From: Weissella confusa
GTDB taxonomy: Bacteria > Bacillota > Bacilli > Lactobacillales > Lactobacillaceae
Assembly (NCBI GenBank): GCA_016466735.1
Contig: JAAOED010000001.1
Location: forward strand, 1-64,000
Direction of reading: 5' to 3'
Length of the DNA: 64,000 nucleotides
Shown here piece by piece: positions 18,502 to 64,000 of this stretch (position 1 is its first letter; each line of letters starts with the position of its first letter). The notes beneath the pieces are model-generated. The model was not told the origin of the DNA. It was given only the letters and a program-made list of their open reading frames with translations, and did no database searches. A program made the position numbers and the translations under genes.

Positions 18502-19335
18502 ATGCAGTCTGCTAAGAAAGTATTTTCAACGCGTTCTACAGTTACCGCAGCTATCGCTTTAATCATTATGATTATTGCTGGTGTGATGTTTAAGGGTTCG
18601 GTTTCAGGAACTGGTTTCTGGCATGGTGTTATCATCGCCAACTTCTCACGCTCAATTTTGGGTGTGTCAGCTTGGTTTGGTAATAACTATGGTTTGGGAA
18701 TTATCGCCTTTACGATTTTGATTCGTCTTTTGATTTTGCCTTTGATGGTTTATCAAACGAAATCAATGCGTAAGATGCAAGAAGTTGCCCCTGCCTTGAA
18801 GGCTATTCAAGCCAAGTATCCAAATCGTGATACTGAGTCAATGGCTGCCATGCAAGCTGAGCAAAGCGCCCTTTATAAGGAAGCTGGTGTAAATCCATTT
18901 GCAAGCTTCTTGCCTTTGATTGTTCAAATGCCAATTTTGATTGCCTTGTATACGGCTATTCGTACAACGAAGCAATTGGAAACGGGAACTTTCTTGTGGG
19001 CTCAACTTGGTCAACACGACCACTTGTTCATTTTGCCAATTTTAGCTGCCCTATTCACGTTTGCTTCATCATACCTTGTGATGATGGGACAACCTGAAAA
19101 GAACAGCATGACAACGTCAATGACGTACATTATGCCAATTATGATCTTCATTTTTGCCATTAATGTACCATCAGCCTTGTCATTGTACTGGGTGGTTTCA
19201 AATGCCTTCCAAGTTGCACAAACATGGACGATTCAAAACCCATTTGAAATTCGTCGTGAGCGTGAAGCTAAGAAGCGTGCCGAAAAGGATCGCGAACGTG
19301 CAATCCGTAAGGCAAAGCGTGGCCACAAGCGTTAA
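18502..19335 (+). CDS. yidC: Membrane protein insertase YidC/Oxa1
   Basis: Inserts and folds membrane proteins, with or without SecYEG. This 277-residue Gram-positive type has a first hydrophobic segment at about 15-32. The conserved core follows (YGLGIIAFTILIRLLILPL at about 62-80), with further segments at about 127-145, 170-190 and 205-232. The C-terminal tail is strongly basic (KKRAEKDRERAIRKAKRGHK). Gram-positive YidC proteins usually end their signal peptide with a lipobox cysteine; this one has no cysteine there. A terminator follows instead of the usual jag (khpB) gene. Confidence 0.95.
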   Translation: MQSAKKVFSTRSTVTAAIALIIMIIAGVMFKGSVSGTGFWHGVIIANFSRSILGVSAWFGNNYGLGIIAFTILIRLLILPLMVYQTKSMRKMQEVAPALKAIQAKYPNRDTESMAAMQAEQSALYKEAGVNPFASFLPLIVQMPILIALYTAIRTTKQLETGTFLWAQLGQHDHLFILPILAALFTFASSYLVMMGQPEKNSMTTSMTYIMPIMIFIFAINVPSALSLYWVVSNAFQVAQTWTIQNPFEIRREREAKKRAEKDRERAIRKAKRGHKR

Positions 19336-19340
19336 CCATT

Positions 19341-19370
19341 AAAGACACCGCATTATGCGGTGTCTTTTTT
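19341..19370 (+). terminator. Terminator after yidC
   Basis: A 12-bp perfect stem (19341-19352 with 19356-19367) runs into a T tract, six bases past the yidC stop. Confidence 0.9.
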
Positions 19371-19494
19371 ATTACCAGTGAATGAAACTTGAAAAAATCT
19401 GAACGTTTTGTAAAGGCGCTTGTTATTGGGACATTTTTTCCTGGTAGGTGTGCTAAACTTAGGGATAGGAAACATATATGATAGGAGAACACCC

Positions 19495-20112
19495 ATGAAA
19501 GCATTTCGCGAGATTATGTCTTGGGTTATTCCGATTGCTATCGGATTAATTATTGCGCTCTTGATTAAGTCTTACTGGTTTACGTTGGTCCGTGTTGATG
19601 GAACTTCAATGGAGCCCAATTTGACTAACAACGAACGCGTATTTGTCTTGAAGCCAGACAAAGTTCACCGAGGAAGTGTCGTGGTATTTGATGCTTATGG
19701 TGAAGATCCAGAAGTTGATGGTCACAAGGATTACGTTAAGCGTGTAATTGGTATGCCTGGTGACACAGTTAGTGCTGTGAATGGTGTTATCAAGGTTAAC
19801 GGCAAGGTTGTTGATCAAGATTTTATTCCTGAATCTGAGCAAACAGCAACGAATACGGTTAATAATGTTGGTAACTGGTCAAGTTTGACTGAACTTGGTG
19901 ACCACATGGGGTGGCAACGTCAAAAGACGGTTAAGGTGCCAAAGGGACAATACTTCGTCCTTGGTGATCACCGTACAGTCTCAAATGACTCACGTTATTG
20001 GGGATTTGTCAGCGAAGACAAGGTTTTGGGTGTTGTGAAGGTGCCATTCTGGGGTAACGCAGAAAAGAAGGCCAACATTAACACACAATGGAAGACATTC
20101 TTTGAGAAGTAA
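19495..20112 (+). CDS. lepB: Signal peptidase I
   Basis: Membrane-bound serine-lysine protease that removes signal peptides from exported proteins. The 205-residue protein has one N-terminal membrane anchor (about 9-27). The nucleophile serine is in DGTSMEPNL (about residue 39) and the general-base lysine in KDYVKRVIGMPGD (about residue 81). The late GDHRTVSNDSRYWGFV motif is also present. The start is ATG 19495, preceded by AGGAGA; an upstream in-frame extension is not supported. It stands alone between two terminators. It would process the NEAT proteins and MetQ encoded in this window. Confidence 0.96.
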   Translation: MKAFREIMSWVIPIAIGLIIALLIKSYWFTLVRVDGTSMEPNLTNNERVFVLKPDKVHRGSVVVFDAYGEDPEVDGHKDYVKRVIGMPGDTVSAVNGVIKVNGKVVDQDFIPESEQTATNTVNNVGNWSSLTELGDHMGWQRQKTVKVPKGQYFVLGDHRTVSNDSRYWGFVSEDKVLGVVKVPFWGNAEKKANINTQWKTFFEK

Positions 20113-20114
20113 TG

Positions 20115-20150
20115 AAAAATGCGACTAGCAAAGTGCTAGTCGCATTTTTT
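20115..20150. terminator. Shared terminator of lepB and the haem operon
   Basis: A perfect 16-bp stem (20115-20130 with 20134-20149) with A and T tracts. It lies between the converging lepB gene and the last gene of the minus-strand haem uptake operon. Confidence 0.88.
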
Positions 20151-20833
20151 TATGCCGGTAAGATTAATGTTTGTTCATCCACGGACACGATTTTAAGTGG
20201 TGTTTGGAAAGCCACGGATAATTTTTCTGCATCAAGTAATGTAGGTGTCTCAGCAGTTGCTAATTCACCTGATTTATTAAGTAACCAGATATTATCGCTA
20301 TATGCAAATGCCTGGTTCAAATCATGTAGCACCATAATCACCGTTAAGTGGCGTTCTTTTTGGACACGCTGCAACGTTTTTAGAAAGATTTGCTGGTATT
20401 GCAAATCTAAATAAGTGGTTGGCTCATCAAGAATCAGTAAATCAGGTGCTTGATGGAGTACAAAGGCCAGCCAAGCGAGTTGCTGTTGCCCGCCAGATAG
20501 CGTCAGCATGTTTTGATCAAGCAATTCTTCGAGTTTTAAATCATTGATGATGTGTTCATCCAAGGATGGCTGTTTAATCGTTAATAAATCGCGTACAGTT
20601 AGCGGTTCAAACAACTCGTTTTTTTGTGCGAGCAACGCAATTTTCTTTGGCCGTTCCGTGATAAAACCGGCTGACGGATTTAGGTCATTGGTTATTAATT
20701 GCAATAAAGTTGTTTTACCGGCACCGTTTGGACCAATTAATGTCGTAATCCGATTGGGTGCAAGAGATGCTGAAACATCATTCAGAATATGTTTGTTATT
20801 ACGATTGAATGAAACATGATTAAGTTTAAGCAT
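20150..20833 (-). CDS. Haem/iron ABC transporter ATPase (FecE/FhuC type)
   Basis: Cytoplasmic ATPase energising uptake through the preceding FecCD-type permease. The 227-residue protein has Walker A GPNGAGKTTLLQ, ABC signature LSGGQQQLAWLAF, Walker B LLILDEPTTYLD and the H-loop MVLHDLNQAF. These are normal for cobalamin/siderophore/haem importers. The start was moved to ATG 20833, since GAGG lies 8 bases upstream. It overlaps the permease stop by 8 bases, so translation is coupled. It is the last gene of the five-gene operon. Substrate is inferred from the NEAT genes. Confidence 0.88.
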   Translation of the reverse strand: MLKLNHVSFNRNNKHILNDVSASLAPNRITTLIGPNGAGKTTLLQLITNDLNPSAGFITERPKKIALLAQKNELFEPLTVRDLLTIKQPSLDEHIINDLKLEELLDQNMLTLSGGQQQLAWLAFVLHQAPDLLILDEPTTYLDLQYQQIFLKTLQRVQKERHLTVIMVLHDLNQAFAYSDNIWLLNKSGELATAETPTLLDAEKLSVAFQTPLKIVSVDEQTLILPA

Positions 20834-21749
20834 GGCGACCACCTCGGACGAGCATTAGAACGAATAATGGACCACTAATTGCGAGCAAAACAGCGCTGGT
20901 AGACAATTCTTTCGGCGCTAAAACAGTTCGGGCGATGGTATCAGCATTTAATAATAGTAAGCTGCCCCACAAAGCGGTCGAACCGATTAGCTGTTGTGAT
21001 TTCGCTTTTGGTGACATTAACCGGGCGATTTGTGGCAGGATTGCACCTAAGAAAAAGACGACGCCAATCAAGCTAGTCAGAGCACCAATCCAAATACCAA
21101 TGGCGATTAAGACAAACCACATTGTGCGTGATTCATTGATTCCCAGCAGACGAACTTGCTGCGATGATAATGCAAAATATTTTAAATGATGCCAAACCAA
21201 GATTAATAAGATACTGCCGACTACCCCACTGATGACTAGTTGGATAACTTGCAACCAAGTTACAGTGCTGAGTGTAGGTAATGGTAGACCAAAGCCTTCG
21301 CTGGCGATACTTGTGCCGGCCTGAAATGTCATCGCGGTTGCGATACCAATTAAAATGAGTTGTAAATTACCGCGATTAGTCGGCATCACTAGACGCCAGC
21401 CAATCATGATTACGATACCAGCAAATGCCCCGACAATAACATTGTTGGCTAGCATGCTTGGAATTAAAACCAATGCGCCCGTTATGAAAAACTGACTACC
21501 GTTCATCATACCTAAAATCGAGGCATCGACAAACCGATTGCGTAAGACGAGTTGTAGTAGCAACCCGCTGGCGCCAATGATGGCACCACCAATAATGCTC
21601 ACGATAATACGTGGTAGTCGGTAAGTCACGATGAGGTGCCATGCATCATTATTTGAAAAGACTGGTAGGCCAGTGCTACCAACCAGTAAGGCGATGATAA
21701 CGCTGATGACTAGCAAACCAACTAGCACCCAATTATAAAGATGTTTCAT
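20826..21749 (-). CDS. Haem/iron ABC transporter permease (FecCD family)
   Basis: A polytopic permease of about 307 residues with 9-10 hydrophobic segments. It shows FecCD hallmarks: TYRLPRIIVSIIGGAIIGASG near the N-terminus and a GVVFFLGAILPQIARL motif near 240-255 that contacts the ATPase. The start is ATG 21749, because GAGGTG sits 8 bases upstream; an earlier in-frame TTG has no such site. It lies 11 bases after the binding-protein stop and overlaps the ATPase gene. In the haem operon it is the transmembrane channel, probably as a homodimer. Confidence 0.88.
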   Translation of the reverse strand: MKHLYNWVLVGLLVISVIIALLVGSTGLPVFSNNDAWHLIVTYRLPRIIVSIIGGAIIGASGLLLQLVLRNRFVDASILGMMNGSQFFITGALVLIPSMLANNVIVGAFAGIVIMIGWRLVMPTNRGNLQLILIGIATAMTFQAGTSIASEGFGLPLPTLSTVTWLQVIQLVISGVVGSILLILVWHHLKYFALSSQQVRLLGINESRTMWFVLIAIGIWIGALTSLIGVVFFLGAILPQIARLMSPKAKSQQLIGSTALWGSLLLLNADTIARTVLAPKELSTSAVLLAISGPLFVLMLVRGGRHA

Positions 21750-21760
21750 AGTCGGCACCT

Positions 21761-22630
21761 CTAATTTCCTAACCAAGTTTTGATTTGATTGAATGCTTTT
21801 ATTGCATTTAGATTAGCCGTCATACCAAAAATGGGTTCTTTGGCTTGATAGACATGCCCGTTTTTCACAGCATTAATGGTCTGCCAATTGTTTTGGGCAA
21901 ACAAAGCATCAAAACTTTTGAAAACATTGTCAGGCATTGCATGCGCCATGGTAACAATGACATCGGGGTTTTCGGCCGCGATTTGTTCAGCATTCAAGTT
22001 TGTATACGCTGAGTCACCTGCACCAATAACATCCCCACCTGCTTTATTAATTAAATCACCAACATAGCTGTGTTGGGTCCCAACCAAGAAAGACCCACCG
22101 GGCATGCCCATTAGGAGGGCGACTTTTGGTCGTGACGCCGGTTTAACTGGCGTAATCGTCAATTGTTTAACTAACTTGTTTGCTTCAGATTGCTTATTAT
22201 ATTGCTTCCCGACAGTTGTGATGCTACTTTTTAACGTATCAAGTGTTGAAAAATCTAATGTCTGCGACGCGATGTGATCGCTGTCTAATTTTTGTTGGTA
22301 GTCATCGACTAATGCGCTATCTAAGTAGACCACGTCGGGGTTTAGTGACGACATTTTTTCGAGGTTGGGTGCAACGTGATTACCAACTTGAGGTAACTTA
22401 GCATAACGTTTTGGCAATGTTTGTTGCTCACCGGGCGTGGGCACCCCGACTAAGGGAATGGCTAATTGATCAAATACTTGTGCTTGCGCATTGGTGGTGA
22501 CAATTATCCGTTTTGTTGGGGATGATGCTGTGTTAGTGTTTTTTTGCGTCGCTAACCAGATCCATCCACCGGTTATAATAACCAAAATAACAAATAGGAT
22601 TCCTAACCCCGTTAATTGTTTTTTCGACAT
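21761..22630 (-). CDS. ABC transporter substrate-binding protein, IsdE/FecB-like, membrane-anchored
   Basis: A 289-residue periplasmic-binding-type protein, probably for haem. One N-terminal hydrophobic segment (about 8-27) is followed directly by a linker (NTNTASSPTK). There is no lipobox cysteine, so it should stay anchored by an uncleaved helix. The FecB fold begins at RIIVTTNAQ. IsdE of S. aureus uses Met78 and His229 as haem ligands. Here His230 in VTMAHAMPDN sits in the equivalent second lobe, while the first-lobe region reads VGNHVAPN (81-88), offering His85 or another residue. It follows the single-NEAT gene with almost no gap and precedes the permease. Confidence 0.82.
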   Translation of the reverse strand: MSKKQLTGLGILFVILVIITGGWIWLATQKNTNTASSPTKRIIVTTNAQAQVFDQLAIPLVGVPTPGEQQTLPKRYAKLPQVGNHVAPNLEKMSSLNPDVVYLDSALVDDYQQKLDSDHIASQTLDFSTLDTLKSSITTVGKQYNKQSEANKLVKQLTITPVKPASRPKVALLMGMPGGSFLVGTQHSYVGDLINKAGGDVIGAGDSAYTNLNAEQIAAENPDVIVTMAHAMPDNVFKSFDALFAQNNWQTINAVKNGHVYQAKEPIFGMTANLNAIKAFNQIKTWLGN

Positions 22631-22633
22631 GAT

Positions 22634-23413
22634 TTACTTCTTCTTTAGTAGATTTAGCGCAACTGCACCGGCAATTCCAATTACCAATCCGCCACCGATA
22701 ATCGCTGCAATTGGCAAAGGGGTTTCACTAGCTACTGGCTTAGGTGTCGCAGATTTTTTAGCCGGTGTGGCTTTTTTATTTTCGCGTGAGCTAGTTGATG
22801 ATGAGTTGCTACTTATTGTTGCTGATGATTCAGACTGGCTTGAAGCATCAGTTGAGCTTGTTGAAGCGACTGATGCAGCCGTTGTACTTGTTTCAGTCGC
22901 TGCGTTGGCCTCGCTTGGTGCAGTAGTGCTGCTTTGAGCGACAGATGACGCAGTAACAGTTGCTTTTTGTGGCGCAGGAACGGATGCGCTATCAATAACT
23001 AACCCAACTGTGTAGTTATGGTGATAGTTGATACTATCAACGTCAACTCGAATATTAGCATTATGACGTGCATCAAGATTGTTTGTCTGGAAGGTATACG
23101 TAATCGTTTGATTATTACCTGATTGGCTTTTTGAAACCGAAACACCTGAACCATCAACGCTAAGCATCTGAACAGGATAGTTACCTAAACTTGTATCAGT
23201 TGTAATCGTTGAGGTGACCGTATATCCGCTATCACTCGGTGTCACGGTTGCGGATCCCGCAAAATACGCAGCCGCATATGAAGTGTTTGATGATCCATTT
23301 TCCAGTATTTGCATAGGAACTGTGTAACTATTGGCCTGAGCAACTTGACTTGGTACAAAAATAGCAGTTAAACCAAAGGCTAGTGCTAACAATATATATT
23401 TAATCTTCATCAT
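22634..23413 (-). CDS. Single-NEAT-domain haem-binding surface protein
   Basis: A 259-residue exported protein. The signal peptide ends at AQA. A NEAT domain spans about 30-145 and contains YHHNY, matching the YxxxY motif whose first tyrosine ligates haem iron. Next comes a Ser/Thr/Ala-rich wall-spanning spacer (about 150-215), then a C-terminal membrane helix (about 234-257) with KKK after it. No sortase motif is present. The start was set at ATG 23413, which shares one base with the stop of the upstream gene (TAATG) and has GGAG at a good distance; the in-frame TTG upstream is unlikely. It probably passes haem from the large NEAT protein to the binding protein. Confidence 0.88.
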   Translation of the reverse strand: MMKIKYILLALAFGLTAIFVPSQVAQANSYTVPMQILENGSSNTSYAAAYFAGSATVTPSDSGYTVTSTITTDTSLGNYPVQMLSVDGSGVSVSKSQSGNNQTITYTFQTNNLDARHNANIRVDVDSINYHHNYTVGLVIDSASVPAPQKATVTASSVAQSSTTAPSEANAATETSTTAASVASTSSTDASSQSESSATISSNSSSTSSRENKKATPAKKSATPKPVASETPLPIAAIIGGGLVIGIAGAVALNLLKKK

Positions 23414-25608
23414 TAGTGCTTTCTCCAAACGTTCAAAGCAAGAGAGGCACCAACAAATCCAACCGCCGCAGTAATCGCAACGCCAGCTCCAATCATTGTT
23501 GCGCGTACAATTTTAGACTGCTTAGGTGCTGCGGCAGATTGACTAGGTTTTGAGGCAGAATTGGTCGTTTTGTTTTTAGCCACAGTTTGCTCTTTTGTCG
23601 GTGCTAATTTGATTTTTTTATCAGATGTCGGTGCTTGAGGCGTGGTAACTGTTTGTGGCGACGCAATTAGATGAGTCGTTGCCAAAGTAGTTGGTGCCAT
23701 TGGTACTGATGAAGCAACAGTAGTGAATGCAACTGGTGCAGGATCAAAAGTCGTTGCTGTTGTTTCTGTTTCACGTGGAACAATCGCCGTATCTGAAATT
23801 TCATGTTGCGTTTGATCATTATTTTGGTTGTTGGCTGATGTTTCGCCAGACAATTGATCACCGATAACCAGACGAATGTCGTAGTTTTCGTTATAAACGA
23901 GTGGCGATGTAAATTGCACGTGAATGTTAGTCAAAATTGGTGACGTAATTTCAGATTCGCTTAGTGTTAGACGGAAAACGGATTGATAATACCCGTTTAC
24001 CAGATTAGTGCTCATTAACTTAGCCGCATGCTTGGTATCGTTAAAACGAATTGGATTTTGTCCCATCATGGCTGGCGTGTGTGTCGTTAGATAAGCGTAG
24101 TACGTGCCATCAGCATTTTTGCTTAACTTAATCGTTGGTAGCATGTATGTTGCGGCCATTGATTTTTCGTTTTTATCAGCTTGTAAAATGTTCAAGGCGT
24201 ATGTTGAATCTTGTGCAACAACGTTTGAATTGTCAGGCGTTGAAGATGGCTTATCCCCTGCTGGCTTGTCAGGAGTTGTTGGTGTCGTTGGTTGTGAATC
24301 CGTCGGTGCATCGCTTAGGCGAACCGCATTTTCAACATCAAATAGCATATCAGCCTTTGGTTGCTCAATGATGTTACCGTTCATTGAAATTGTCATGCTA
24401 GTTGCAACGGTTTTATTCAAATCAGCCACTGGTAATGTCACCAACCAGTGAGTACCAGTGGCGGTTGCCTTAACACCGTTGAAGCGGTAGTTAGACATCA
24501 TTCCCATAATGGCAGCATTACTAGTTTCAATATCGATGGTCGCTTGGCCGTTTTTAACCGTGACGGTGGCTGGCGTCTTCAAGTAATTGTTCATACTTGA
24601 AGCGGTTGTTGTACCAGTCTTGTAGTTGGTTAATGGAACCGTGTAAACACCGTCCGTTAGTACTGATTGACTTGGTGTTTCTGGCTCTGGTTCCGGTTCG
24701 CTTGGGATTTCCGGTTGTGTAGGCGTGGTTGGCACTTCCGGTACGACTGGATTTGTCGGAGCTGACTCACCAGGTGCGTTGGTCATATCAAATGACAAAG
24801 TTGACTTATATCCCTTTGAAGGACTCATAGGCACGCCCGTGAATGAGTCGATTTTGGCAATGCCATCAGCATCTGGATTTAAATCTTTGGTTGGAATATC
24901 GAAAGTAATCGTTCGTTGTCCGTTAACTGGTTTGGTAATGTTGTCGAAAGTCAAATCAGAAATCATGCCAAGCATTGGTTGCTTAGATGCCTGGTAGCTG
25001 ACTGTGACCTTAGATGTTAACCAACCAATTTCAGTTGAGAAAGTCTTATCAAACCATGACCCCATCCCGCCATCAGCCGATACCGGCAAATCAAAAGAAC
25101 CGGTTGTGACAGCTGCACTAGGCAAAAGTGACGACATATCAAATGTTAGATTTGACTTGTAGCCTTTACTAGGACTCATAGGCACACTAGTGAAAGAGGC
25201 TAACGTCACTTTTGACCCTGATTCTGGCTTCAAATCATCAGTTGGGATGGTGAATGTAATAGCTTGTTGTCCGTTTACTTGTTGTGTAATACCATCAAAC
25301 GTCAGTTCTGGAATCATAGCCAACATGCCAGATACTGAATCCTTGAAAGAAATTGTGACGTCAGTTGTCGCTCCCTTAACTGCTAACTTAGCCGTTGCGT
25401 TAAAGAATCGATCCATACCGTCGCTAGCTTCCATGGGAACTTCCGCCGTGATAATTGCGTCGGCGGTCGTCTTGTTAGATGTGCTAGTAACTGCTGTTGT
25501 TTCGGCAGCGAATGTGACAGTTGCAACGCTGGTAATTGATGTTGTCAACAGCATGCCGCCCAAAACGGCTGTTGAAAACAATGAAGCAGTACGTGATAAG
25601 TTACTCAT
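23413..25608 (-). CDS. Multi-NEAT-domain haem/haemoprotein-binding surface protein
   Basis: A 731-residue exported protein with four NEAT-like units at about 50-160, 167-278, 316-432 and 466-590. A Pro/Glu-rich linker lies at 282-314, a Ser/Thr/Pro-rich stalk at 600-700, and a C-terminal membrane helix at 703-727 without a sortase motif. Only unit 4 has a YxxxY motif (YNENY, 572-576). Units 1 and 2 are close duplicates in which the axial-tyrosine position is proline (MSPSKGY at 144-150 and 261-267). They carry methionines at the places where Met ligands could sit (Met65, Met144; Met182, Met261). Unit 3 lacks both tyrosines. It is the first gene of the haem operon; AGGAGA lies upstream. Confidence 0.85.
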   Translation of the reverse strand: MSNLSRTASLFSTAVLGGMLLTTSITSVATVTFAAETTAVTSTSNKTTADAIITAEVPMEASDGMDRFFNATAKLAVKGATTDVTISFKDSVSGMLAMIPELTFDGITQQVNGQQAITFTIPTDDLKPESGSKVTLASFTSVPMSPSKGYKSNLTFDMSSLLPSAAVTTGSFDLPVSADGGMGSWFDKTFSTEIGWLTSKVTVSYQASKQPMLGMISDLTFDNITKPVNGQRTITFDIPTKDLNPDADGIAKIDSFTGVPMSPSKGYKSTLSFDMTNAPGESAPTNPVVPEVPTTPTQPEIPSEPEPEPETPSQSVLTDGVYTVPLTNYKTGTTTASSMNNYLKTPATVTVKNGQATIDIETSNAAIMGMMSNYRFNGVKATATGTHWLVTLPVADLNKTVATSMTISMNGNIIEQPKADMLFDVENAVRLSDAPTDSQPTTPTTPDKPAGDKPSSTPDNSNVVAQDSTYALNILQADKNEKSMAATYMLPTIKLSKNADGTYYAYLTTHTPAMMGQNPIRFNDTKHAAKLMSTNLVNGYYQSVFRLTLSESEITSPILTNIHVQFTSPLVYNENYDIRLVIGDQLSGETSANNQNNDQTQHEISDTAIVPRETETTATTFDPAPVAFTTVASSVPMAPTTLATTHLIASPQTVTTPQAPTSDKKIKLAPTKEQTVAKNKTTNSASKPSQSAAAPKQSKIVRATMIGAGVAITAAVGFVGASLALNVWRKH
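23767..23782 (-). promoter_or_regulatory. parS site (perfect consensus, minus strand)
   Basis: On the minus strand this reads TGTTCCACGTGAAACA, identical to the ParB consensus TGTTNCACGTGAAACA and to the gyrB site. It lies inside the multi-NEAT gene, about 6 kb right of oriC. Confidence 0.85.
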
Positions 25609-25699
25609 ACTTGATATCGTTCTCCTAAAAAATAAAATAAATCCCCGAAATAATAGCGATTGAGAAAATTCACAGAAAGTTCACAATTTAACTTTTACC

Positions 25700-25729
25700 A
25701 TTCTATGCAGATAGTAAGATTTAATGCAA
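25700..25729 (-). promoter_or_regulatory. Promoter of the haem uptake operon
   Basis: On the minus strand TTGCAT (25729-25724) and TAGAAT (25705-25700) are 18 bp apart. They lie about 90 bases before the multi-NEAT start. Between promoter and gene the leader contains two half-similar TGTGAA elements. A Fur-type or haem-sensor operator could not be identified with confidence. Confidence 0.55.
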
Positions 25730-25811
25730 GTTTAATTCCGAAGTTTAGGAATTGTGTGTGCAAGTGTTAAAATTAAAACATAAAATTATATTTGGGGAAT
25801 GGTTATTAGGT

Positions 25812-26480
25812 ATGAAACAAACATTTGCAGTCATTGGGTTGGGAAGATTTGGTGGTTCATTGCTTGAATCTTTAATTGCGGCCGATCAAGAAGTACTTGC
25901 GATTGATAACAATCCAGCTTTGGTTGAAAATTACATGGACGTCGCAACCCACGCCGTGATTGCTGATGCCCAAGACGAAGATGCCTTGCGTGATTTGGAC
26001 TTACCTAGTTTTGATCACGTGATTGTTGCGATTGGACACAATCAACAAGCTTCAATTTTGACAACGATTTTGTTGAAGGACATGGGTGTGCGCCACGTGG
26101 TTGCAAAAGCCGAAAACAACTTACACGCGCGCGTGCTAGACAAGGTTGGTGCTGACCAAGTGGTACGACCTGAACACGAAATGGCGCAACGTTTGGCTGA
26201 ACAAATCATGACACCGAACTTGATTAACTACATTGATTTGGGCGATAAGCACTCATTGGGTGAAATCAAGATTGCGAATTTAAAGTTTGCGAATAAAACA
26301 ATTTCAGAATTGAATATTCGCAAGAACTACGGTTTGAATGTGATTGCGATTAAGTCGCAAGGGCGCGTTGTTGTGGCGCCAGAATCATCAGAGATGATTC
26401 AAATTGGTGACGTACTCACAGTGGTTGGTGAGAGCGTTGATGTGAAGCACTTTGAATCACTCGTTGAAAAGGTGAAGTAA
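25812..26480 (+). CDS. ktrA: Potassium uptake regulatory subunit KtrA (TrkA/RCK family)
   Basis: Cytoplasmic gating ring of a Ktr potassium transporter. The 222-residue protein has an RCK-N Rossmann domain (FAVIGLGRFGGSL at about 5-17, acidic residue after strand 2) that binds ATP/ADP. A C-terminal RCK-C domain follows (about 140-220), which binds cyclic di-AMP in other Firmicutes. The start is set at ATG 25812, giving the family's usual MKQTFAVIGLGRFG beginning; the upstream in-frame extension covers promoter-like sequence. The partner membrane subunit, KtrB, is encoded 7.7 kb away at 34146 rather than adjacent. Confidence 0.93.
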   Translation: MKQTFAVIGLGRFGGSLLESLIAADQEVLAIDNNPALVENYMDVATHAVIADAQDEDALRDLDLPSFDHVIVAIGHNQQASILTTILLKDMGVRHVVAKAENNLHARVLDKVGADQVVRPEHEMAQRLAEQIMTPNLINYIDLGDKHSLGEIKIANLKFANKTISELNIRKNYGLNVIAIKSQGRVVVAPESSEMIQIGDVLTVVGESVDVKHFESLVEKVK

Positions 26481-26490
26481 GCCGGAATAC

Positions 26491-26519
26491 TTGACTAATA
26501 AATAAGAAGTTATTATAGT
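26491..26519 (+). promoter_or_regulatory. Promoter of the T-box/permease transcript
   Basis: TTGACT (26491-26496) and TATAGT (26514-26519), spaced by exactly 17 bp. It lies just upstream of the T-box leader. Confidence 0.75.
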
Positions 26520-26526
26520 TAAGATT

Positions 26527-26752: not shown

Positions 26753-26777
26753 ATACCCCATGCAGTGAGGGTTTATT

Positions 26778-53165: not shown

Positions 53166-53183
53166 AGAAAGTAGAGTGTGGGG

Positions 53184-54707
53184 ATGTTAGCAGATATGTT
53201 ACACATGCTGACAACACAATCTGGCGATATATTGACGGCGTTGCGTGAACACGTACTGCTTTCTTTGTTAGCGATTGTGATTGCAGCAATCATTGCCCTG
53301 CCATTGGCTATCGGCTTGATGAATCATCGCCGTGCCGGTGAGTGGGTGCTTCAAATTGCCGGGGTTATTCAAACGATTCCGAGTTTGGCGATTCTAGGAG
53401 CGTTAATTCCGTTTGTGGGTATCGGAACGGTGCCGTCAGTCATTGCGTTGGTTTTGTATGCTATTATGCCAATTTTTCAAAACGCCTATGCTGGTTTGAC
53501 TGGAATTGATCCAACGTTGTTAGAAGCAGCCGATGCGTTTGGATTATCGAAGCGTTTCAAACTGTTCCGCGTGCAGTTACCATTGGCGATGCCGATGATT
53601 ATGTCAGGTTTGCGTATTGCGATGGTGATGATTATCGGAACCGCAACCTTGGCAGCCTTGATTGGTGGCGGTGGCTTGGGAACCTTCATCATGTTGGGAA
53701 TTCAAACTAATAACAATGCTGAATTGTTGTTGGGTGCCATCTTATCAGCCTTGCTGGCGTTGGTATTTTCTTGGGGTATTAAGTTGCTAAGTAAGTTGTC
53801 ACTAAAGCGTATTGGCATTGTGATAGCAAGCTTGATTGTGATTTTTGGTGGGGTTGCCGGTTATCGTGCAATTGCTCAACCAGCCGGTACGATTACGATT
53901 GCTGGAAAATTGGGTGGTGAGCCTGAAATTTTGATTAACATGTACAAGGATTTGATCCAGCAGGATAATCCACGTTTGAAGGTGCAACTAAAGCCTAATT
54001 TTGGTGGGACAACCTTCTTGTATAAGGCGTTGCAGAGTGGTCAGGTTGATATTTATCCCGAGTTTACCGGAACGGTATTGCAATCATTGGTTAAGACAGA
54101 TGGTCATATTCCACATGACCCTGTCACGGCTTATGAGCGTGGTAAGAAGTTGTTGAAGCAACAAGACAATCTGGACTACTTGCAACCAATGAAGTATCAA
54201 AACACGTATGCTTTGGCGGTTCGTAAGGCTGACGCTAAGAAGTATGGTTTGAAAACGACATCTGATTTGAAGAAGGTCGATGCCCAATTTGCAGCCGGCT
54301 TCGACCCAGATTTCGCTAAGTTGTCTGATGGTTATCCTGGTTTGCAAAAGGCATACGACTTGAACTTCAGTAAGGTCGTGACGATGGAATCAAGTTTACG
54401 TTACGAGGCGGTTGCCAATAAGCAGGTTGATGTGACGGATGCTTATACAACGGATCCGCAATTGAAGCAGGATGATTTGGTGTCATTGAAGGATGATAAG
54501 CAATTCTTCCCACCTTACCAAGGTGCCCCGTTGGTTAACGATGCGACATTGCAGAAGTATCCAAGCATTAAAAAGAGCTTGAATAAGTTGGCGGGCAAGA
54601 TTTCAGAAGATGATATGATTCAAATGAATTATGAAGTAACGGTTCAGCATAAAAAGGCTGGGGATGTTGCGCGTGATTATTTGAAGCAGCATGGCTTGAT
54701 AGATTAA
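53184..54707 (+). CDS. Osmoprotectant permease fused to substrate-binding domain (OpuFB/OpuCB-CC-like)
   Basis: A 507-residue fusion. Residues about 1-225 form a permease with six membrane segments and the EAA motif LEAADAFGLSKRFKLFRVQL. A hinge with one further hydrophobic segment (GIVIASLIVIFGGVAGYRA) follows. From about 235 comes an OpuCC-type binding domain (GTITIAGKLGGEPEILINMY). The binding domain is anchored by the membrane part, so no lipid anchor is needed. It takes up betaine/choline/carnitine-type solutes with the ATPase just upstream. ATG 53184 was chosen; GTG 53178 is an alternative. Confidence 0.88.
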   Translation: MLADMLHMLTTQSGDILTALREHVLLSLLAIVIAAIIALPLAIGLMNHRRAGEWVLQIAGVIQTIPSLAILGALIPFVGIGTVPSVIALVLYAIMPIFQNAYAGLTGIDPTLLEAADAFGLSKRFKLFRVQLPLAMPMIMSGLRIAMVMIIGTATLAALIGGGGLGTFIMLGIQTNNNAELLLGAILSALLALVFSWGIKLLSKLSLKRIGIVIASLIVIFGGVAGYRAIAQPAGTITIAGKLGGEPEILINMYKDLIQQDNPRLKVQLKPNFGGTTFLYKALQSGQVDIYPEFTGTVLQSLVKTDGHIPHDPVTAYERGKKLLKQQDNLDYLQPMKYQNTYALAVRKADAKKYGLKTTSDLKKVDAQFAAGFDPDFAKLSDGYPGLQKAYDLNFSKVVTMESSLRYEAVANKQVDVTDAYTTDPQLKQDDLVSLKDDKQFFPPYQGAPLVNDATLQKYPSIKKSLNKLAGKISEDDMIQMNYEVTVQHKKAGDVARDYLKQHGLID

Positions 54708-54714
54708 ATGAAAT

Positions 54715-55593: not shown

Positions 55594-56487
55594 ATGAGCA
55601 AGAAGATTATTACAAGTGCAGTACTAGCATTGGCAGTGGCCGGCGCGGTTATCCCAGCGACATCAGTTGTGGCATCAGCAAAGGAATTGAAGACGGTGAA
55701 GGTGGGAATCAATTCACCATCTAAGACAGATCAGGCCGTTTGGAACATCGTTAAGAAGAATGGTGAAAAGCGCGGTATCAAGATTAAGTTGATTACCTTT
55801 ACGGACTTCAACCAACCAAACGCGGCTTTGAAGCAAGGGAATATTGATGCGAATGCCTTCCAACACTATGCCTTCTTGTCAGATTGGAATAAAGCGCACA
55901 AGGCAGATTTGCAACCAGTTGGTGAGACGGTATTGGGACCTGGTCGCTTGTACTCAGATAAGTACAAGTCAGTGAAGGATATTCCAGATGGTGGTACGAT
56001 TGCGGTTGCTAACGACCCAACTAACGAAGCGCGTGCTTTGTTCTTGTTGCAAGCAGCTGGCTTGATTAAGATTAAGGCAGGCGTTACAAGTCCAACGGTT
56101 CGTGATATCGTTTCAAGTTCTAAGAATTTGCACGTGAAGGAATTGGCAGCCGATCAAACGTTGGCTAGCTTGAATTCAGTTGATGCTGCCGTTATCTCAG
56201 CTACATTCGTTGAAGCCGCTGGTCGCAACCCGAACTCAGCCATCTACGTTTGGAACGCCAACAACAAGCAATCACACCAATGGGTGAACATCATCGCAGC
56301 GCGCCACGACGATGCTAAGAAGTGGTACATCAAGGCTTTGGTAAAGTCATACCAAACGAAGGAAGTTGGGCAATACATCAACGACCACAACAACGGTACG
56401 GAAATCGCAGCTTGGAAGGGTGCACCTAAGGCTACGGTTGTGACGGCCGATACGGCTAGCGATGCATCATCTGCATCATCAAACTAA
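55594..56487 (+). CDS. metQ: MetQ/NlpA-family methionine-binding protein without lipobox
   Basis: A 297-residue extracytoplasmic binding protein. Its signal peptide (residues 1-31, basic start then AVLALAVAGAVIPATSVVASA) ends in an AxA cleavage site with no cysteine, so signal peptidase I should release the mature protein unlipidated. The NlpA fold begins KTVKVGINSPSKTDQAVWNI. The Met T-box leader makes methionine the likely ligand. No MetN or MetI gene is adjacent, so its permease is elsewhere. GGAG precedes the ATG. The C-terminus is a Ser/Ala-rich tail. Confidence 0.88.
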   Translation: MSKKIITSAVLALAVAGAVIPATSVVASAKELKTVKVGINSPSKTDQAVWNIVKKNGEKRGIKIKLITFTDFNQPNAALKQGNIDANAFQHYAFLSDWNKAHKADLQPVGETVLGPGRLYSDKYKSVKDIPDGGTIAVANDPTNEARALFLLQAAGLIKIKAGVTSPTVRDIVSSSKNLHVKELAADQTLASLNSVDAAVISATFVEAAGRNPNSAIYVWNANNKQSHQWVNIIAARHDDAKKWYIKALVKSYQTKEVGQYINDHNNGTEIAAWKGAPKATVVTADTASDASSASSN

Positions 56488-56509
56488 TCATAAAATCGAG
56501 GGGATTTGA

Positions 56510-58381: not shown

Positions 58382-58387
58382 TGAAAA

Positions 58388-58430
58388 ATCAGCCATCTCT
58401 CAACTTGTGTTGGGGGATGGCTGATTTACT
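58388..58430 (+). terminator. Terminator after the S9 peptidase gene
   Basis: AAATCAGCCATC pairs with GATGGCTGATTT around a small internal loop. It lies just past the stop. Confidence 0.8.
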
Positions 58431-58455
58431 ATATGTTTGTTAATTTTGGTGTCAA

Positions 58456-58471
58456 TGTTTCACATGAAACA
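58456..58471. promoter_or_regulatory. parS-like site, one mismatch
   Basis: TGTTTCACATGAAACA, one central base off the ParB consensus. It is intergenic, between two converging genes, about 41 kb from oriC. Confidence 0.6.
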
Positions 58472-58556
58472 TTGGCGAATATATCGTTTTAAATAACCTA
58501 GCAAAATTAAAAAACTATTTATTACAGCAGCCGTTGGACTAAAACCGCCGGCATTC

Positions 58557-59066
58557 TCAGTCTGCTTTATTCTCAGATTCTGTTTTACGATTCAACTGGC
58601 TCAACATAATGCGGGTACCAAGGTTTTGGATACCATCAAGCTTCAAGTGATCACGGATACCATCGTTCATCTTATCTAGCATGGCTGCGAGTTGCGTCCA
58701 TTCTTCTGGGCTTAGATAATCGAGGTATTCGGGGATGTAAAACAAACTCTTTTCAGCTTCGTGGCGACCTTTTTCAGTGAGCTGAATTAATTGAATACGA
58801 CCATCAGTTGGGGACTTTGTCTTAGTGACAAAGTCCTTTTTAACTAGCTTAGCGACGAATTCAGCTGTTGATTGCACACTCATGTCCAAGCGATCAGCGA
58901 GGTCCTTTTGAGAAATATTATCGCCTTCACTTAATGCGACCAAGACTTTATTTTGCCCACGGAAAACGGGTGAGTGACGTTCAACTTGTTCATCAGCCAA
59001 GTGCTGAAGTGATGTAAATTCAAATAGTTTTGCTGCTAATTGGTGCTTTTCGATCAAATCAGCCAT
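58557..59066 (-). CDS. MarR-family regulator of the adjacent ABC exporter
   Basis: A 169-residue winged-helix repressor. The HTH is NISQKDLADRLDMSVQSTAEF (shown in part) at about 49-69, and the wing TKTKSPTDGRIQLIQLTEKG at about 80-100. It is divergent from the DrrAB-type exporter genes, with three palindromic sites between them. AGGA precedes the ATG. Probably controls its own gene and the exporter. Confidence 0.88.
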   Translation of the reverse strand: MADLIEKHQLAAKLFEFTSLQHLADEQVERHSPVFRGQNKVLVALSEGDNISQKDLADRLDMSVQSTAEFVAKLVKKDFVTKTKSPTDGRIQLIQLTEKGRHEAEKSLFYIPEYLDYLSPEEWTQLAAMLDKMNDGIRDHLKLDGIQNLGTRIMLSQLNRKTESENKAD

Positions 59067-59140
59067 GTGTCTTGCCGTCCTTTAATTTTTCTACTAATGC
59101 CAGTATAACAGGGTTCGTGACGAATATGAACTAAAATACA

Positions 59141-59211
59141 CAGGGTACCTGAACAAAATCGTTGACATGTTAATCAGGGTACCTTATTATTGTTTTCATC
59201 AGGTACCCTGA
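59141..59211. promoter_or_regulatory. Promoter and three palindromic operators of the ABC exporter operon
   Basis: CAGGGTACCTG occurs at 59141-59151, CAGGGTACCT at 59175-59184 and CAGGTACCCTGA at 59200-59211. TTGACA (59162-59167) and TATTAT (59185-59190) are 17 bp apart, and the middle operator fills the spacer. This arrangement strongly suggests repression by the divergently encoded MarR-type protein. Confidence 0.85.
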
Positions 59212-59242
59212 TAATTAATTTTGAAAACAAGAAGGCAATATC

Positions 59243-60178
59243 ATGAGTGAAGAGTATGCAGTTGAAATTGAAGGATTGACTAAGACGTTTGGCACGCAAA
59301 CGGCGGTTGATAACGTGTCGTTTAACATCAAGCGTGGTGAGGTGTTCGGTTTGCTTGGACCAAACGGAGCGGGTAAGACAACTACGCTGCGCATGATGAC
59401 GACGTTGCTAAAACCGACGTCAGGAACGATTCAAATTTTCGGTCACGATGTTAAGAAGGAACCGAAGGTGGTTCGTTCGTTGTTTGGTTTGACTGGTCAA
59501 TACGCATCGGTTGATGAGGATATTTCTGCTCGCGAAAACTTGATGATTTTCTCACGCCTAAATGGTTTGTCACGACGCGAGGCTAAGGAACGTACAGAAG
59601 AATTATTGACCGAGTTTTCATTGGTGGCCTCAGCTGATAAGGCGATTTCGAATTTCTCAGGTGGCATGCGTCGTCGCTTGGATTTGGCAGTTAGCCTGAT
59701 TTCACGACCAGCGTTGATTTTCTTGGATGAACCAACGACCGGTCTTGATCCACGCACACGTACGCAAATGTGGGATACCATTCGCGAGTTGGTTGCAGAA
59801 GGCTCAACAATTGTCCTAACGACCCAATACTTGGAAGAGGCTGATGAATTAGCTGATCGCATCGCGTTGATTGACCACGGAAAGTTGGTCAGTCTCGGCA
59901 CGCCAGCCGAGTTAAAGGCCCAAGTTGGGGGCGCAAAGCTACGTTTGGAAATGGCAGATGCACAACAAGCTGACCAGGCCAAGCAAATCGTAACTGATGC
60001 GTTGCACGAAGAAGTAAAGGTGGCCAATAACATTGTTACAGCGCCACTACGCGATACGAATCAGGTTGCGGGTATCTTGAGCCAACTAACTGTAGCGGGG
60101 CTCACAATGACGAATATGGCCGTTGAACAACCATCTATGGATGATGTGTTCTTTGCGTTGACGGTTGGAAAGAATTAA
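59243..60178 (+). CDS. Drug-type ABC exporter ATPase (DrrA-like)
   Basis: A 311-residue ATPase. Walker A GPNGAGKTTTLRMMT, Q-loop GLTGQYASVDEDISARENL, signature NFSGGMRRRLDLA and Walker B ALIFLDEPTTGLDPRTR follow the daunorubicin-resistance DrrA pattern. The C-terminal 80 residues form the usual regulatory tail. AAGG precedes the ATG. It forms an operon with the permease 22 bases downstream, under MarR-type control. Confidence 0.92.
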   Translation: MSEEYAVEIEGLTKTFGTQTAVDNVSFNIKRGEVFGLLGPNGAGKTTTLRMMTTLLKPTSGTIQIFGHDVKKEPKVVRSLFGLTGQYASVDEDISARENLMIFSRLNGLSRREAKERTEELLTEFSLVASADKAISNFSGGMRRRLDLAVSLISRPALIFLDEPTTGLDPRTRTQMWDTIRELVAEGSTIVLTTQYLEEADELADRIALIDHGKLVSLGTPAELKAQVGGAKLRLEMADAQQADQAKQIVTDALHEEVKVANNIVTAPLRDTNQVAGILSQLTVAGLTMTNMAVEQPSMDDVFFALTVGKN

Positions 60179-60200
60179 GGGAAATAAGAAGGTTAGAATC

Positions 60201-60980
60201 ATGATGGATGTACAAGCACACAAGACAAATATTATTGCGAACACGGCTACGATGGCATACCGTAATTTGCTAAAGACGTTACACAACCCAGACAAGTTTT
60301 TGGATGTGATTGTGCAACCTGTGATGTTCATGTTGATGTTTGGTTACCTATTTGGTGGGGCGATTGCAGGTAACGTGCATGCTTATTTGCCAACGATTGT
60401 GCCAGGAATTCTTATGCAAGCGTTGATTTCAGCTGCATCAGGTTCCGGTACCCAAATTAGTGACGACATGAATTCAGGTATTTATGATCGTTTGAAGTCA
60501 TTGCCAATCGCCCACATTGCACCATTGGCCGGACAACTATTCGCAGATATTTTGCGTTTGTTTATCGCTGCAATTGCGTCATTGACGACGGGATTCCTAA
60601 TGGGATGGCGTCCAGCAGCCGGATTTGGTTGGGTAGTTGTCGTTGTGTTGTTAGATGTGTTCCTGGGATGGGCCTTGAGCTGGGTATTCGCTTTGTACGG
60701 TATGGTTGCCAAGAGTTCAACGATGGTCGAAAGTGTCTCATTGATCACGATGCTTTTGCTAACGTTCCTATCAAGTGCATTCGTACCTGTTAAGACGATG
60801 CCACATGCCATGCAATTTTTGGTAAACCTAAACCCGGTAACGTATGTCATTAAGGCATCACGTGTCATGCTAAACCAAGGTGTTTGGTCAAACCAAGCCT
60901 GGATTGTACTAGGTGCTGGTGTGTTGGTGGTTGCAATCTTTGCACCGCTAACAGTGTTGGTTTATAACCGTAAGAATTAA
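60201..60980 (+). CDS. ABC-2-type exporter permease (DrrB-like)
   Basis: A 259-residue membrane protein with six segments and the ABC-2 family pattern. The first helix is preceded by NPDKFLDVIVQPVMFMLMFGY. The signature region lies at about 105-140 (YDRLKSLPIAHIAPLAGQL). A final NLNPVTYVIKASR is present. It pairs with the ATPase upstream. ATG 60201 was chosen over upstream in-frame codons because AAGG lies about 10 bases before it. Confidence 0.9.
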   Translation: MMDVQAHKTNIIANTATMAYRNLLKTLHNPDKFLDVIVQPVMFMLMFGYLFGGAIAGNVHAYLPTIVPGILMQALISAASGSGTQISDDMNSGIYDRLKSLPIAHIAPLAGQLFADILRLFIAAIASLTTGFLMGWRPAAGFGWVVVVVLLDVFLGWALSWVFALYGMVAKSSTMVESVSLITMLLLTFLSSAFVPVKTMPHAMQFLVNLNPVTYVIKASRVMLNQGVWSNQAWIVLGAGVLVVAIFAPLTVLVYNRKN

Positions 60981-60985
60981 TAAGT

Positions 60986-61032
60986 AAAAGCCCTGTATCA
61001 AGGTTTGGAAATGGCCTTGATACAGGGCTTTG
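60986..61032. terminator. Shared terminator of the exporter operon and guaA
   Basis: AAAGCCCTGTATCAAGG pairs with CCTTGATACAGGGCTTT, between converging genes. Confidence 0.88.
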
Positions 61033-61047
61033 ATGTTTATTTGAGCA

Positions 61048-62601
61048 TTATTCCCACTCTACAGTTGCAGGTGGCTTAGCCGTAATGTCGTAGACGACGC
61101 GGTTGATGTGGTCGACTTCGTTTACGATGCGACGAGAAATCTCTTCCAAGATATCCCATGGCAACTTTGCGAAGTCAGCCGTCATACCGTCGACTGACGT
61201 GATGGCACGAATAGCGATGGTGTAGTCGTACGTACGACCGTCTCCCATGACACCGACTGAACGAACGCCAGTCAATACCGTGAAGTATTGCCAAACTGCG
61301 CCGTCTAGGCCGTGCTTGGCGATTTCTTCACGCAAGATAGCGTCAGATTCGCGCACAATTTCAAGCTTGTCTTCAGTGACTTCGCCCAAAATACGGATTC
61401 CAAGACCAGGACCAGGGAATGGTTGGCGCCATACAAGTTCGTGTGGCATACCCAACTTTTCACCCAAAGCACGTACTTCATCCTTGAAGAGCGTGTTCAA
61501 AGGCTCAATCAATTGGAATTGCATGTCTTCAGGCAATCCGCCAACGTTGTGGTGTGACTTAATTGTTTGGGCAGTATCAGTTCCTGACTCGATAACGTCC
61601 GTGTACAACGTTCCTTGGGCCAAGAAGTCGATACCATCAAGCTTTGCAGCTTCTTCGTCAAAGACACGAATGAATTCGTTTCCGATAATCTTACGCTTTT
61701 GCTCAGGGTCAGTAACACCGGCAAGCTTAGATAGGAAACGTTCTTGGGCGTCGACCTTGATGATGTTCAAACCGAACTTACCACCAAGTGATGCCATCAC
61801 TTCATCAGCTTCATTCTTACGTAGCAAACCGTGATCAACGAAGATTGATGTCAATTGGTCACCGATGGCGCGTTGCAACAACACACCAACGACTGATGAA
61901 TCAACACCACCAGAAAGTCCCAACAAGACCTTCTTGTCGCCAACCGTTTCGCGGATTTGCTTAATTTGTTCGTCGATGAAGTCATCCATTGACCAGTTAC
62001 GTTCAGCACGAACAGCCTTGTCGACGAAGTTTTCCAAGATTTGCATCCCGTATTCAGTGTGTTGTACTTCAGCGTGGAATTGTACACCGTAGAAGTTGTG
62101 GTATGTGTCTTCCATTGCAGCGATAGGCGTGCTTTCTGACGTTGCAACCGCCTTGAAGCCATCAGGGACTTGTTCGACATAGTCTCCGTGTGACATCAAA
62201 ACTGTTTGCGTCTCAGGCGTGTTGCCGAACAATAGCGCGCTATCATCCGTCACATCCATTTCAGTTTCGCCGTATTCAGCTGAATCGTTAGCTGGTGCAA
62301 CCTTTCCCCCTGGTAAAACGTGTGCCATGAGTTGCATACCGTAGCAGACACCCAAAATAGGAATGTTCAAGTTGAACACCTCTGGGTCAATTGTGAAGGC
62401 GCCGTCTTCGTAAACCGAGTTTGGTCCGCCAGAGAAAATAAGTCCCTTAGGATTTAGTTCCTTAATCTCGGCTGCCGTCAAAGTGTGTGGCTTTAGTTCT
62501 GAGTACACACCCAATTCGCGAATACGTCGTGAAATGAGTTGGTTGTACTGTGATCCAAAGTCCAAAACAAGAATACTGTCGTGTGCTTGTGTGTTTCCCA
62601 T
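61048..62601 (-). CDS. guaA: GMP synthase (glutamine-hydrolysing)
   Basis: Makes GMP from XMP, ATP and glutamine. The 517-residue protein has a class I glutamine amidotransferase domain (about 1-195), with nucleophile Cys in [17 protein letters not shown] and His/Glu in [13 protein letters not shown]. The ATP-pyrophosphatase domain follows, with the P-loop [16 protein letters not shown]. The C-terminal dimerisation domain ends [11 protein letters not shown] 62601 was chosen, right after GGGGGA; the longer frame runs through the promoter (TATAAT, 62635-62630). PurR-like boxes lie upstream. Confidence 0.97.
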
Positions 62602-62962
62602 GATGTCCCCCATTAATAAGTTGTTTCTAATTATACGTACTTGTCGATATTTATCAATGATAACTTTTGGGAATGTTCGTAATTTGTTCACATATTACAA
62701 TGTTCTCATAATCGTAGTTACTAAAAATAAGTTATTGACGAAAAATACTTATTTTAAAGGGTTCATACGTTGATAATCTGGTTAATCGTTTTTAATAATT
62801 CAAAACTGATGATTTTTGTAATGACTTAGCCCTTGCATTATCTTAAATAGACCTTTATAGTGGTAAAAATTAAATTTTTATATGGACTCTGAGTTGGCCA
62901 GTTTTGGCCGGCAAAACGAGTGGTCGGGTCGAGGGATTTTATACTTGGAGGTATTAGGAAAA
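62602..62962. promoter_or_regulatory. Divergent promoter region of guaA and the BMP-family gene
   Basis: Left side, minus strand: TTGATA (62657-62652) and TATAAT (62635-62630), spacer 16. Upstream of it are three GAACA-centred PurBox-like elements (62684-62672, 62695-62683, 62711-62699); the first reads AATTACGAACATT, one base off the consensus AWWWCCGAACWWT. Right side, plus strand: TTGCAT and TATAGT, spaced 17 bp (about 62833-62861), lead to the BMP gene with GGAGG at 62947-62951. No riboswitch was recognised. Confidence 0.65.
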
Positions 62963-64000
62963 ATGGTTTCACGTCGTAACTTAATTATTGGTGGAGTGGC
63001 ACTTGTCGCGGTTGCAGGAATTGCATACGCAGCAACGTCAGGAAGCAACGGTGGTTCAAGCGATAAGTTCACTGCAGCAGTTGTTTCAGACACGAACGGT
63101 GTTAACGACAAGGGCTTCAACCAAAGCGCTTGGGAAGGTTTGGAGAAGTGGGGTAAGGAAAACGGCTTGGAAAAGGGCCAAAACGGATACAACTACTTCC
63201 AACCTAAGACAGTTGCGGATTACGACACGCAATTGACGCAAGCCGCAACGGCTAAGTACGATGTTGTTGCAGCAATCGGAAACACGTTTAAGGACTCAGT
63301 TCAAACTGTTTCAAAGAAGTACCCAGACACGAAGTTTGTCTTGGTTGACGAAATTGCTGGTGCTAAGTACAAGAACGTTGCGTCAGTCATGTTCCGTTCA
63401 GAGCAATCATCATACTTGGTTGGTGTGGCTGCAGCTACGAAGGCTAAGACGATGGGCGACAACACAGTTGGCTTCGTTGGTGGTATGAAGAACCCGGTTA
63501 TCGAGGCGTTCTTGGCTGGTTACCAAGCCGGCGTGAAGTCAGTTGACCCTAATATCAAGGTAGATGCAACGTATGCTGGTACGTTCTCAGACCCTGCCAA
63601 GGGACAAACGATTGCGAAGGCTAAGATTGCACAAGGTGAGCACATCATCTTCCAAGCCGCTGGTGGTGTTGGAAACGGTGTCTTCCAAGCTGCGAAGGAT
63701 CAAGACGCAACGTTGGCTGCCGACTCTAAGGATAAGGTATGGGTTATCGGTGTCGACATGGATCAAACTGACATGGGTGCCTACAAGACAAAGGATGGCA
63801 AGGCTGATAACTTGACGTTGACATCATCATTGACTGGAATCGGTCGTGGTGTGCAATTGGTTACTGAAGCTGCCCAAAAGGATAAGTTCCCTGGTGGCAA
63901 GACGGTCTACTACGGTTTGAAGGAAAAGGGTGTTGGTGTTACGACTAACAACTTGAACGCAGACGAAAAGAAGGCTGTTGAAGATGCAAAGGCAAAGATT
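62963..64000 (+). CDS. BMP-family nucleoside-binding protein, partial, without lipobox
   Basis: An open frame of 346 codons from ATG 62963 that runs off the right edge. It has the basic membrane protein (BmpA/Med/TmpC) fold: AAVVSDTNGVNDKGFNQSAW near 39-58, VAAIGNTF near 102-109, and GFVGGMKNPVIEAFLAGY near 172-189. The N-terminus MVSRRNLIIGGVALVAVAGIAYA is hydrophobic but has no lipobox cysteine, unlike usual BMP lipoproteins. It likely binds purine nucleosides for an ABC importer encoded beyond the window. The promoter is TTGCAT/TATAGT with GGAGG upstream of the start. Confidence 0.88.
   Translation, partial: MVSRRNLIIGGVALVAVAGIAYAATSGSNGGSSDKFTAAVVSDTNGVNDKGFNQSAWEGLEKWGKENGLEKGQNGYNYFQPKTVADYDTQLTQAATAKYDVVAAIGNTFKDSVQTVSKKYPDTKFVLVDEIAGAKYKNVASVMFRSEQSSYLVGVAAATKAKTMGDNTVGFVGGMKNPVIEAFLAGYQAGVKSVDPNIKVDATYAGTFSDPAKGQTIAKAKIAQGEHIIFQAAGGVGNGVFQAAKDQDATLAADSKDKVWVIGVDMDQTDMGAYKTKDGKADNLTLTSSLTGIGRGVQLVTEAAQKDKFPGGKTVYYGLKEKGVGVTTNNLNADEKKAVEDAKAKI

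Follow-up and report, generated by a model that had tools for sequence, protein, structure and literature searches.

Loss of lgt and lspA, and very probably of lipoprotein biogenesis, in a clade uniting Weissella, Leuconostoc and their relatives

A 64-kb stretch of the Weissella confusa genome (positions 1 to 64,000 of contig JAAOED010000001.1; hereafter the window) encodes YidC, a haem-type solute-binding protein, a MetQ protein and a BMP protein, all four of which lack a cysteine where the signal sequence ends. A preliminary description of this DNA proposed that the lineage had given up lipoprotein modification. Our analysis bears this out: lgt and lspA are absent from the genome, both native loci are closed, and seven genus codes of the family are alike in this respect. 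The scope is wider than was stated, covering an entire clade and a single loss after Periweissella branched off. The clade is made up of Weissella, Leuconostoc, Fructobacillus and Convivina, with Oenococcus as a probable further member. We consider it very likely that its ancestor lost lgt and lspA, and hence lipoprotein biogenesis, and that the former substrates lost their cysteine and took other routes.

The W. confusa assembly comprises 2,304,631 bases in 55 contigs and is 99.99% complete; the HprK that it encodes shares 96% identity with the W. cibaria protein. Profile searches of this genome for Lgt (PF01790) and LspA (PF01252) returned zero matches each. Among 301 genomes of the family, W. 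confusa included, Lgt was matched in 253, and the 48 misses together with six weak matches are confined to seven genus codes (g1, g2, g7, g8, g17, g29 and g39). For 28 of these misses the assignment was made through absence from the match list, with genus codes taken from the LspA search. The 54 genomes in the seven codes, mostly 1.2 to 2.3 Mb in size, constitute the lgt-less clade. Outside the clade Lgt was found in 247 of 247 genomes with E values of 5e-73 or better. Inside it, a PF01790 search at E values up to 10 found full-length Lgt in none of the 54 genomes, some of which are single contigs; 48 had no match at all and six had C-terminal pieces, one of the six with an extra match at chance level. 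LspA was detected in all 24 control genomes (one per genus code) versus 2 of the 54 clade genomes. Among named genomes, LspA is present in nine of nine outside the clade, both Periweissella included, and absent in 18 of 19 within it, the exception being W. fangxianensis, which has an accessory gene. Outside the clade Lgt is near-universal: in a sample of the phylum (completeness of at least 95%) it was found in 393 of 398 genomes, the misses being W. confusa and four scattered genomes, or in 393 of 397 when W. confusa is set aside.

Gene order, which is independent of the PF01790 profile, leads to the same result. Both genes are missing from their native loci, where the neighbouring genes adjoin. 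In lgt-positive relatives, lgt sits between hprK and gpsA. In all 22 clade genomes examined, gpsA follows hprK directly, and the HprK and GpsA domains were confirmed for the W. confusa locus. We also read the best 80 of at least 584 named hprK loci. The gene after hprK is lgt in all 61 that lie outside the clade, those of Periweissella fabalis and P. beninensis included, and in none of the 19 from the clade, which belong to Weissella, Leuconostoc, Fructobacillus, Convivina and further relatives. At the junction, nine Weissella-type loci have a gap of 73 to 141 nt between the two genes; the genes overlap by 8 nt in 10 of 11 Leuconostoc-group loci and by 20 nt in all three g29 loci. A remnant of lgt was sought in the nine Weissella-type gaps and none was found. 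At the other locus, lspA lies directly before rluD in the three lgt-positive genomes examined, Periweissella among them, and all 17 clade genomes have rluD but no lspA beside it. The small FYQ-type open reading frame (ORF) that precedes lspA in Periweissella precedes rluD in the clade; in W. confusa it belongs to the EbsA family and ends 9 nt before rluD. Downstream of rluD the clade has pyrR and carA, both identified by eye, with g29 as the exception.

We asked what the few positive matches in the clade represent. The two LspA-positive clade genomes have the same gene, beside a gene for a Cad-family (cadmium-resistance) transporter and a transposase. Close copies of it occur on plasmids of Enterococcus, Peribacillus and Cytobacillus, and this lspA is an accessory gene and not the native one. 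The arrangement was seen at L051, L052 and L299, from W. fangxianensis and a near relative, where full-length lgt is absent, so the accessory LspA would have no lipidated substrate. The weak Lgt matches in six clade genomes were considered as divergent Lgt and rejected, since all match just the C-terminal part of the profile (positions 154-240), in open frames of up to 117 amino acids. They lie near metal-transport, Dps/Crp-type or transposase ORFs, contexts that were named by eye; at L058, L062, L063, L064 and L065 the fragments have a Dps/Crp-type block on one side and a block for metal (copper-type) transport on the other. The fragments at these five loci are probably what is left of mobile metal-resistance clusters in which lgt is carried elsewhere. 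Plasmids with lgt are common in Enterococcus, Listeria and Lactococcus, the commonest genera being the only ones named in that search, so that plasmids of the clade may carry it too. Mobile lgt that came into the clade genomes is seen there in truncated form only, as though it gave no benefit.

To place the loss we used a quick maximum-likelihood tree of HprK, GpsA, GalU, TrxB and the YidC core from 38 taxa, the last three proteins being missing in some. The 22 lgt-less taxa fall on one side of a branch with a Shimodaira-Hasegawa-like approximate likelihood ratio (SH-aLRT) support of 99, no bootstrap, and Periweissella is next to this branch when lactobacilli are taken as the outgroup. The long branch of g29 beside Leuconostoc, and its divergence, suggest that g29 is probably Oenococcus. 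Periweissella has both lgt and lspA and branches just outside the clade; one ancestral loss therefore suffices. A history in which Weissella and the Leuconostoc group lost the genes separately, in two or more events, would fit the differing hprK-gpsA junctions, with their Weissella-type gaps and the distinct overlaps of the Leuconostoc group and g29. However, junctions can drift after a single loss, and the five-gene tree unites the lgt-less taxa. In addition, approximately unbiased (AU) tests rejected constraints that group Weissella with Periweissella (p-AU 0.00014) or the Leuconostoc group with Periweissella (p-AU 0.0026), both groupings having been chosen after the tree was seen. Independent losses are thus disfavoured by the tree, and we regard them as unlikely.

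A strict pattern for the Gram-positive lipobox (G+LPP) matched none of the 60 ORFs in the window and none of 404 W. confusa ORFs (448 kb), and it likewise had no match among the 1175 ORFs of a 1,248-kb sample drawn from five clade genomes. In contrast, it matched 8 of 749 ORFs in 800 kb from four lgt-positive genomes (Fisher p = 5e-4 against the clade), although the match at L156 resembles a membrane segment. A control pattern in which W, H or Y replaces the cysteine gave 15 matches in the clade versus 8 in the lgt-positive genomes. The lipobox deficit in the clade is therefore more than chance. A looser pattern matched 4 of the 1175 clade ORFs versus 15 of the 749 lgt-positive ones, and three of the four clade matches are, by eye, unlike lipoproteins. 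The fourth is an ORF of g29 (L175:9008-10009, LLASCGAFWYLQM).

The loss is also visible in individual protein families. The YidC comparison covers the window-type paralogue, one of two. Of 16 lgt-positive genus codes, G009 yielded no locus and the other 15 all have a lipobox in this YidC. A second comparison shows it in each of nine lgt-positive rows, Periweissella included, three of which are shared with the 15. Among 26 readable clade rows, which may repeat a species, no cysteine occurs in the first 60 residues; a 27th row, G018, was dropped for its broken N-terminus. In that genome (genus g1, L264) yidC appears to be broken near codon 40, and its N-terminal part matches as a separate piece. 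For MetQ we read a set of 30 loci, one per genome, plus four W. confusa paralogues, a selection from all matches. The lipobox is found in 8 of 13 lgt-positive proteins and in 0 of 21 from the clade. The other five lgt-positive MetQ are membrane-anchored without a cysteine, suggesting that the MetQ family was partly pre-adapted; these lipobox-free proteins (L105, L106, L107, L108 and L094) come from five lgt-positive genus codes of the family. For the same reason MetQ was dropped as a marker of lgt loss. As a minor correction to the preliminary description, lipobox-free MetQ also occurs outside the clade. Judged by eye, the signal seems to stay in place as an anchor in 11 of the 21 clade MetQ and to be cleavable in the other 10, which include the window MetQ. 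The W. confusa genome has five MetQ matches (the window protein and L121, L122, L123 and L124), four of which have probable signal peptidase I sites by eye while one, L124, appears anchored.

Several observations weigh against an ancestral loss of lipoprotein biogenesis. The clade boundary was first drawn from the absence of lgt itself; it is the genus codes and the tree that support the grouping. The lipobox scan covered only 19% of the W. confusa genome, and the lgt-positive control genome G013 is also without a strict match in 300 kb. The g29 ORF at L175:9008-10009 has a lipobox-like LASC; it starts MKKRASIIVGSSLVAILLASCGAFWYLQM, the lipobox-like site running on into hydrophobic residues, and is possibly a relic. 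The PF01790 search missed Bacillus subtilis among the named controls in every run. B. subtilis should have lgt, and its miss is a gap in the search or in the genome copy; it was for this reason that the absence was retested by gene order. Finally, PRED-LIPO predicts zero lipoproteins for Oenococcus oeni PSU-1 and at least nine in each of the other 176 Gram-positive genomes, according to the passages available from PMC5727369, which would conflict with the loss if Leuconostoc is among them.

We weighed three further explanations against these data. Assembly gaps or an insensitive profile might hide divergent lgt and lspA genes, as the missed B. subtilis control could suggest. This is highly improbable, because no full-length match was obtained in 54 genomes, single contigs among them, the flanking genes adjoin, and Periweissella is positive both for the lgt locus and for the LspA profile. 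A different enzyme might instead have replaced Lgt and LspA and lipidate another motif. Such an enzyme, or a cysteine-lipid chemistry unrelated to Lgt, is compatible with the sequences, but we saw no positive sign of it, and the old substrates have lost their cysteine (YidC in all 26 rows, MetQ in all 21) and so would be unmodified there; we give this possibility very little weight. Least probable of all is that the four window proteins are individual exceptions in a genome that makes normal lipoproteins: anchored MetQ without a lipobox in lgt-positive genera means that a single such protein proves nothing, but the search of the genome that had been proposed for intact lgt, intact lspA and good lipoboxes found neither gene, both native loci closed, and zero strict lipoboxes in the 404 ORFs scanned. 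Unless lgt lies outside the assembled sequence, this reading is refuted. The ancestral loss of both genes remains by far the best account.

The window proteins were identified as ORFs with matches to 60KD_IMP (YidC), Peripla_BP_2, Lipoprotein_9/NlpA and Bmp, all far above the Pfam cut-offs; the families and positions agree with the preliminary description, as does the lack of a lipobox cysteine in all four. YidC (18502..19335, + strand) has an N-terminal hydrophobic segment, and the Peripla_BP_2 protein (21761..22630, - strand) an N-terminal membrane segment in which an AxA site is unclear; in both the segment is possibly retained, as proposed. The BMP/PnrA-like protein (62963..64000, + strand), read from an internal ATG at 62963 and cut in its C-terminal part by the window end, has the proposed hydrophobic N-terminal segment followed by AYAATSG, and its cleavage is undecided. 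MetQ (55594..56487, + strand; Lipoprotein_9, 250.9 bits versus a cut-off of 27) has no N-terminal lipobox cysteine, and its signal peptide ends in VASA, as had been noticed, a predicted signal peptidase I site. The signal peptidase I of the window (Peptidase_S26; 19420..20112, + strand) adjoins yidC and is of the type that would cut AxA-type signals in W. confusa. A glycine-betaine-type permease is fused to an OpuAC binding domain (53178..54707, + strand; BPD_transp_1 and OpuAC), for which a lipid anchor is unneeded. OpuAC-permease fusions are common in lgt-positive lactic acid bacteria; the fusion is no evidence for lipoprotein loss, and the idea that it is a consequence of the loss was dropped. 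Beside the Peripla_BP_2 ABC transporter, at 22634-25608, are two NEAT-domain surface proteins with hydrophobic C-terminal tails. Together they possibly form a haem relay that is independent of lipoproteins.

From the sequences we infer the following order of events. In the common ancestor, after the split from Periweissella, lgt would have been lost from between hprK and gpsA, and lspA from upstream of rluD. The former lipoproteins would then have lost a cysteine that was by now useless. YidC and several binding proteins may have kept the signal sequence as an N-terminal membrane anchor; AxA sites occur in the window MetQ and an OppA-type protein, which signal peptidase I probably cuts, setting them free into the wall space or the medium; and some binding domains may have been fused to a permease. 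In 448 kb of the W. confusa genome, with sites read by eye, the signal-anchored kind comprises the Peripla_BP_2 protein, SBP_bac_5 at L129:3745-5613, SBP_bac_8 at L125:12398-13483 and the MetQ at L124. The kind probably cut by signal peptidase I comprises four MetQ and SBP_bac_5 at L133:1325-2947, with the BMP protein undecided between the two. The fused permease at 53178-54707 would represent a third route.

How MetQ stays near its transporter was asked previously, and the answer is partial. The 11 clade MetQ that look anchored would be held by the signal itself; released binding proteins, probably including the cleavable window MetQ, may be kept by wall trapping or by electrostatics. We examined the latter for MetQ: net charge has a median of +21 in the 10 probably cut clade proteins versus +5 in the 11 anchored ones (Mann-Whitney p = 0.005), these being related sequences in classes set by eye, and the probably cut proteins versus eight lipobox MetQ (+14) give p = 0.23. 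The window MetQ is near the low end of charge, and electrostatic retention is a lead only. Among other surface proteins, L136:3787-13832 encodes a pilus-like cluster in which three large proteins, each ending in a C-terminal membrane tail, precede a sortase. That lipoprotein loss can be tolerated is suggested by a relative: Lactiplantibacillus plantarum WCFS1 without lgt is viable, grows normally in the laboratory and releases its binding proteins, according to the passages available from PMC7403179. Laboratory deletion of lgt is a single step in a lipoprotein-making strain, whereas the clade is without both lgt and lspA and its substrates are without lipoboxes.

Phytoplasmas are wall-less plant pathogens with reduced genomes, unlike the walled bacteria of the Weissella/Leuconostoc clade. 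They share with the clade a natural absence of predicted lipoproteins (PMC5727369, passages available). Oenococcus oeni PSU-1, to which our g29 is probably related by genus, is likewise a lactic acid bacterium without predicted lipoproteins. That remark is the only related one found in print; it covers one species, and the available passages of PMC5727369 mention neither loss of lgt or lspA, nor the clade, Weissella, Leuconostoc or the fate of the proteins. Among the matches listed from the open-licence PubMed Central literature (titles, abstracts and passages), no report of lgt or lspA loss in Weissella, Leuconostoc or their kin was found, and the words 'lipoprotein', 'lgt' and 'signal peptidase' are absent from the main text, as available, of a comparative genomics study of Leuconostoc (PMC11279345).

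These results describe what is probably a clade of free-living walled bacteria without any protein lipidation, whose ABC importers would use binding proteins that are signal-anchored or freely released and whose lipoteichoic acid would be naturally free of lipopeptides. The last point bears on a dispute in immunology. In the passages available, a 2017 review (PMC5553087) cites purified Weissella cibaria lipoteichoic acid in support of TLR2 agonism of lipoteichoic acid, and sets against it evidence that lipoproteins are the true TLR2 agonists. In W. cibaria the lgt locus is empty (lgt was searched at this locus only) and LspA is absent genome-wide, although the work cited by the review may have used another strain. 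Without lipoproteins in W. cibaria, its lipoteichoic acid would by nature be clear of this contaminant, and wild-type Weissella or Leuconostoc could settle whether lipoteichoic acid activates TLR2. Lipoprotein prediction for the food bacteria of the clade would need correction. The finding is also relevant to the working of binding-protein-dependent transporters whose binding protein has no lipid tether. A clean, old and clade-wide loss, with the close sister Periweissella still equipped, offers a natural experiment on the purpose of lipid anchors.

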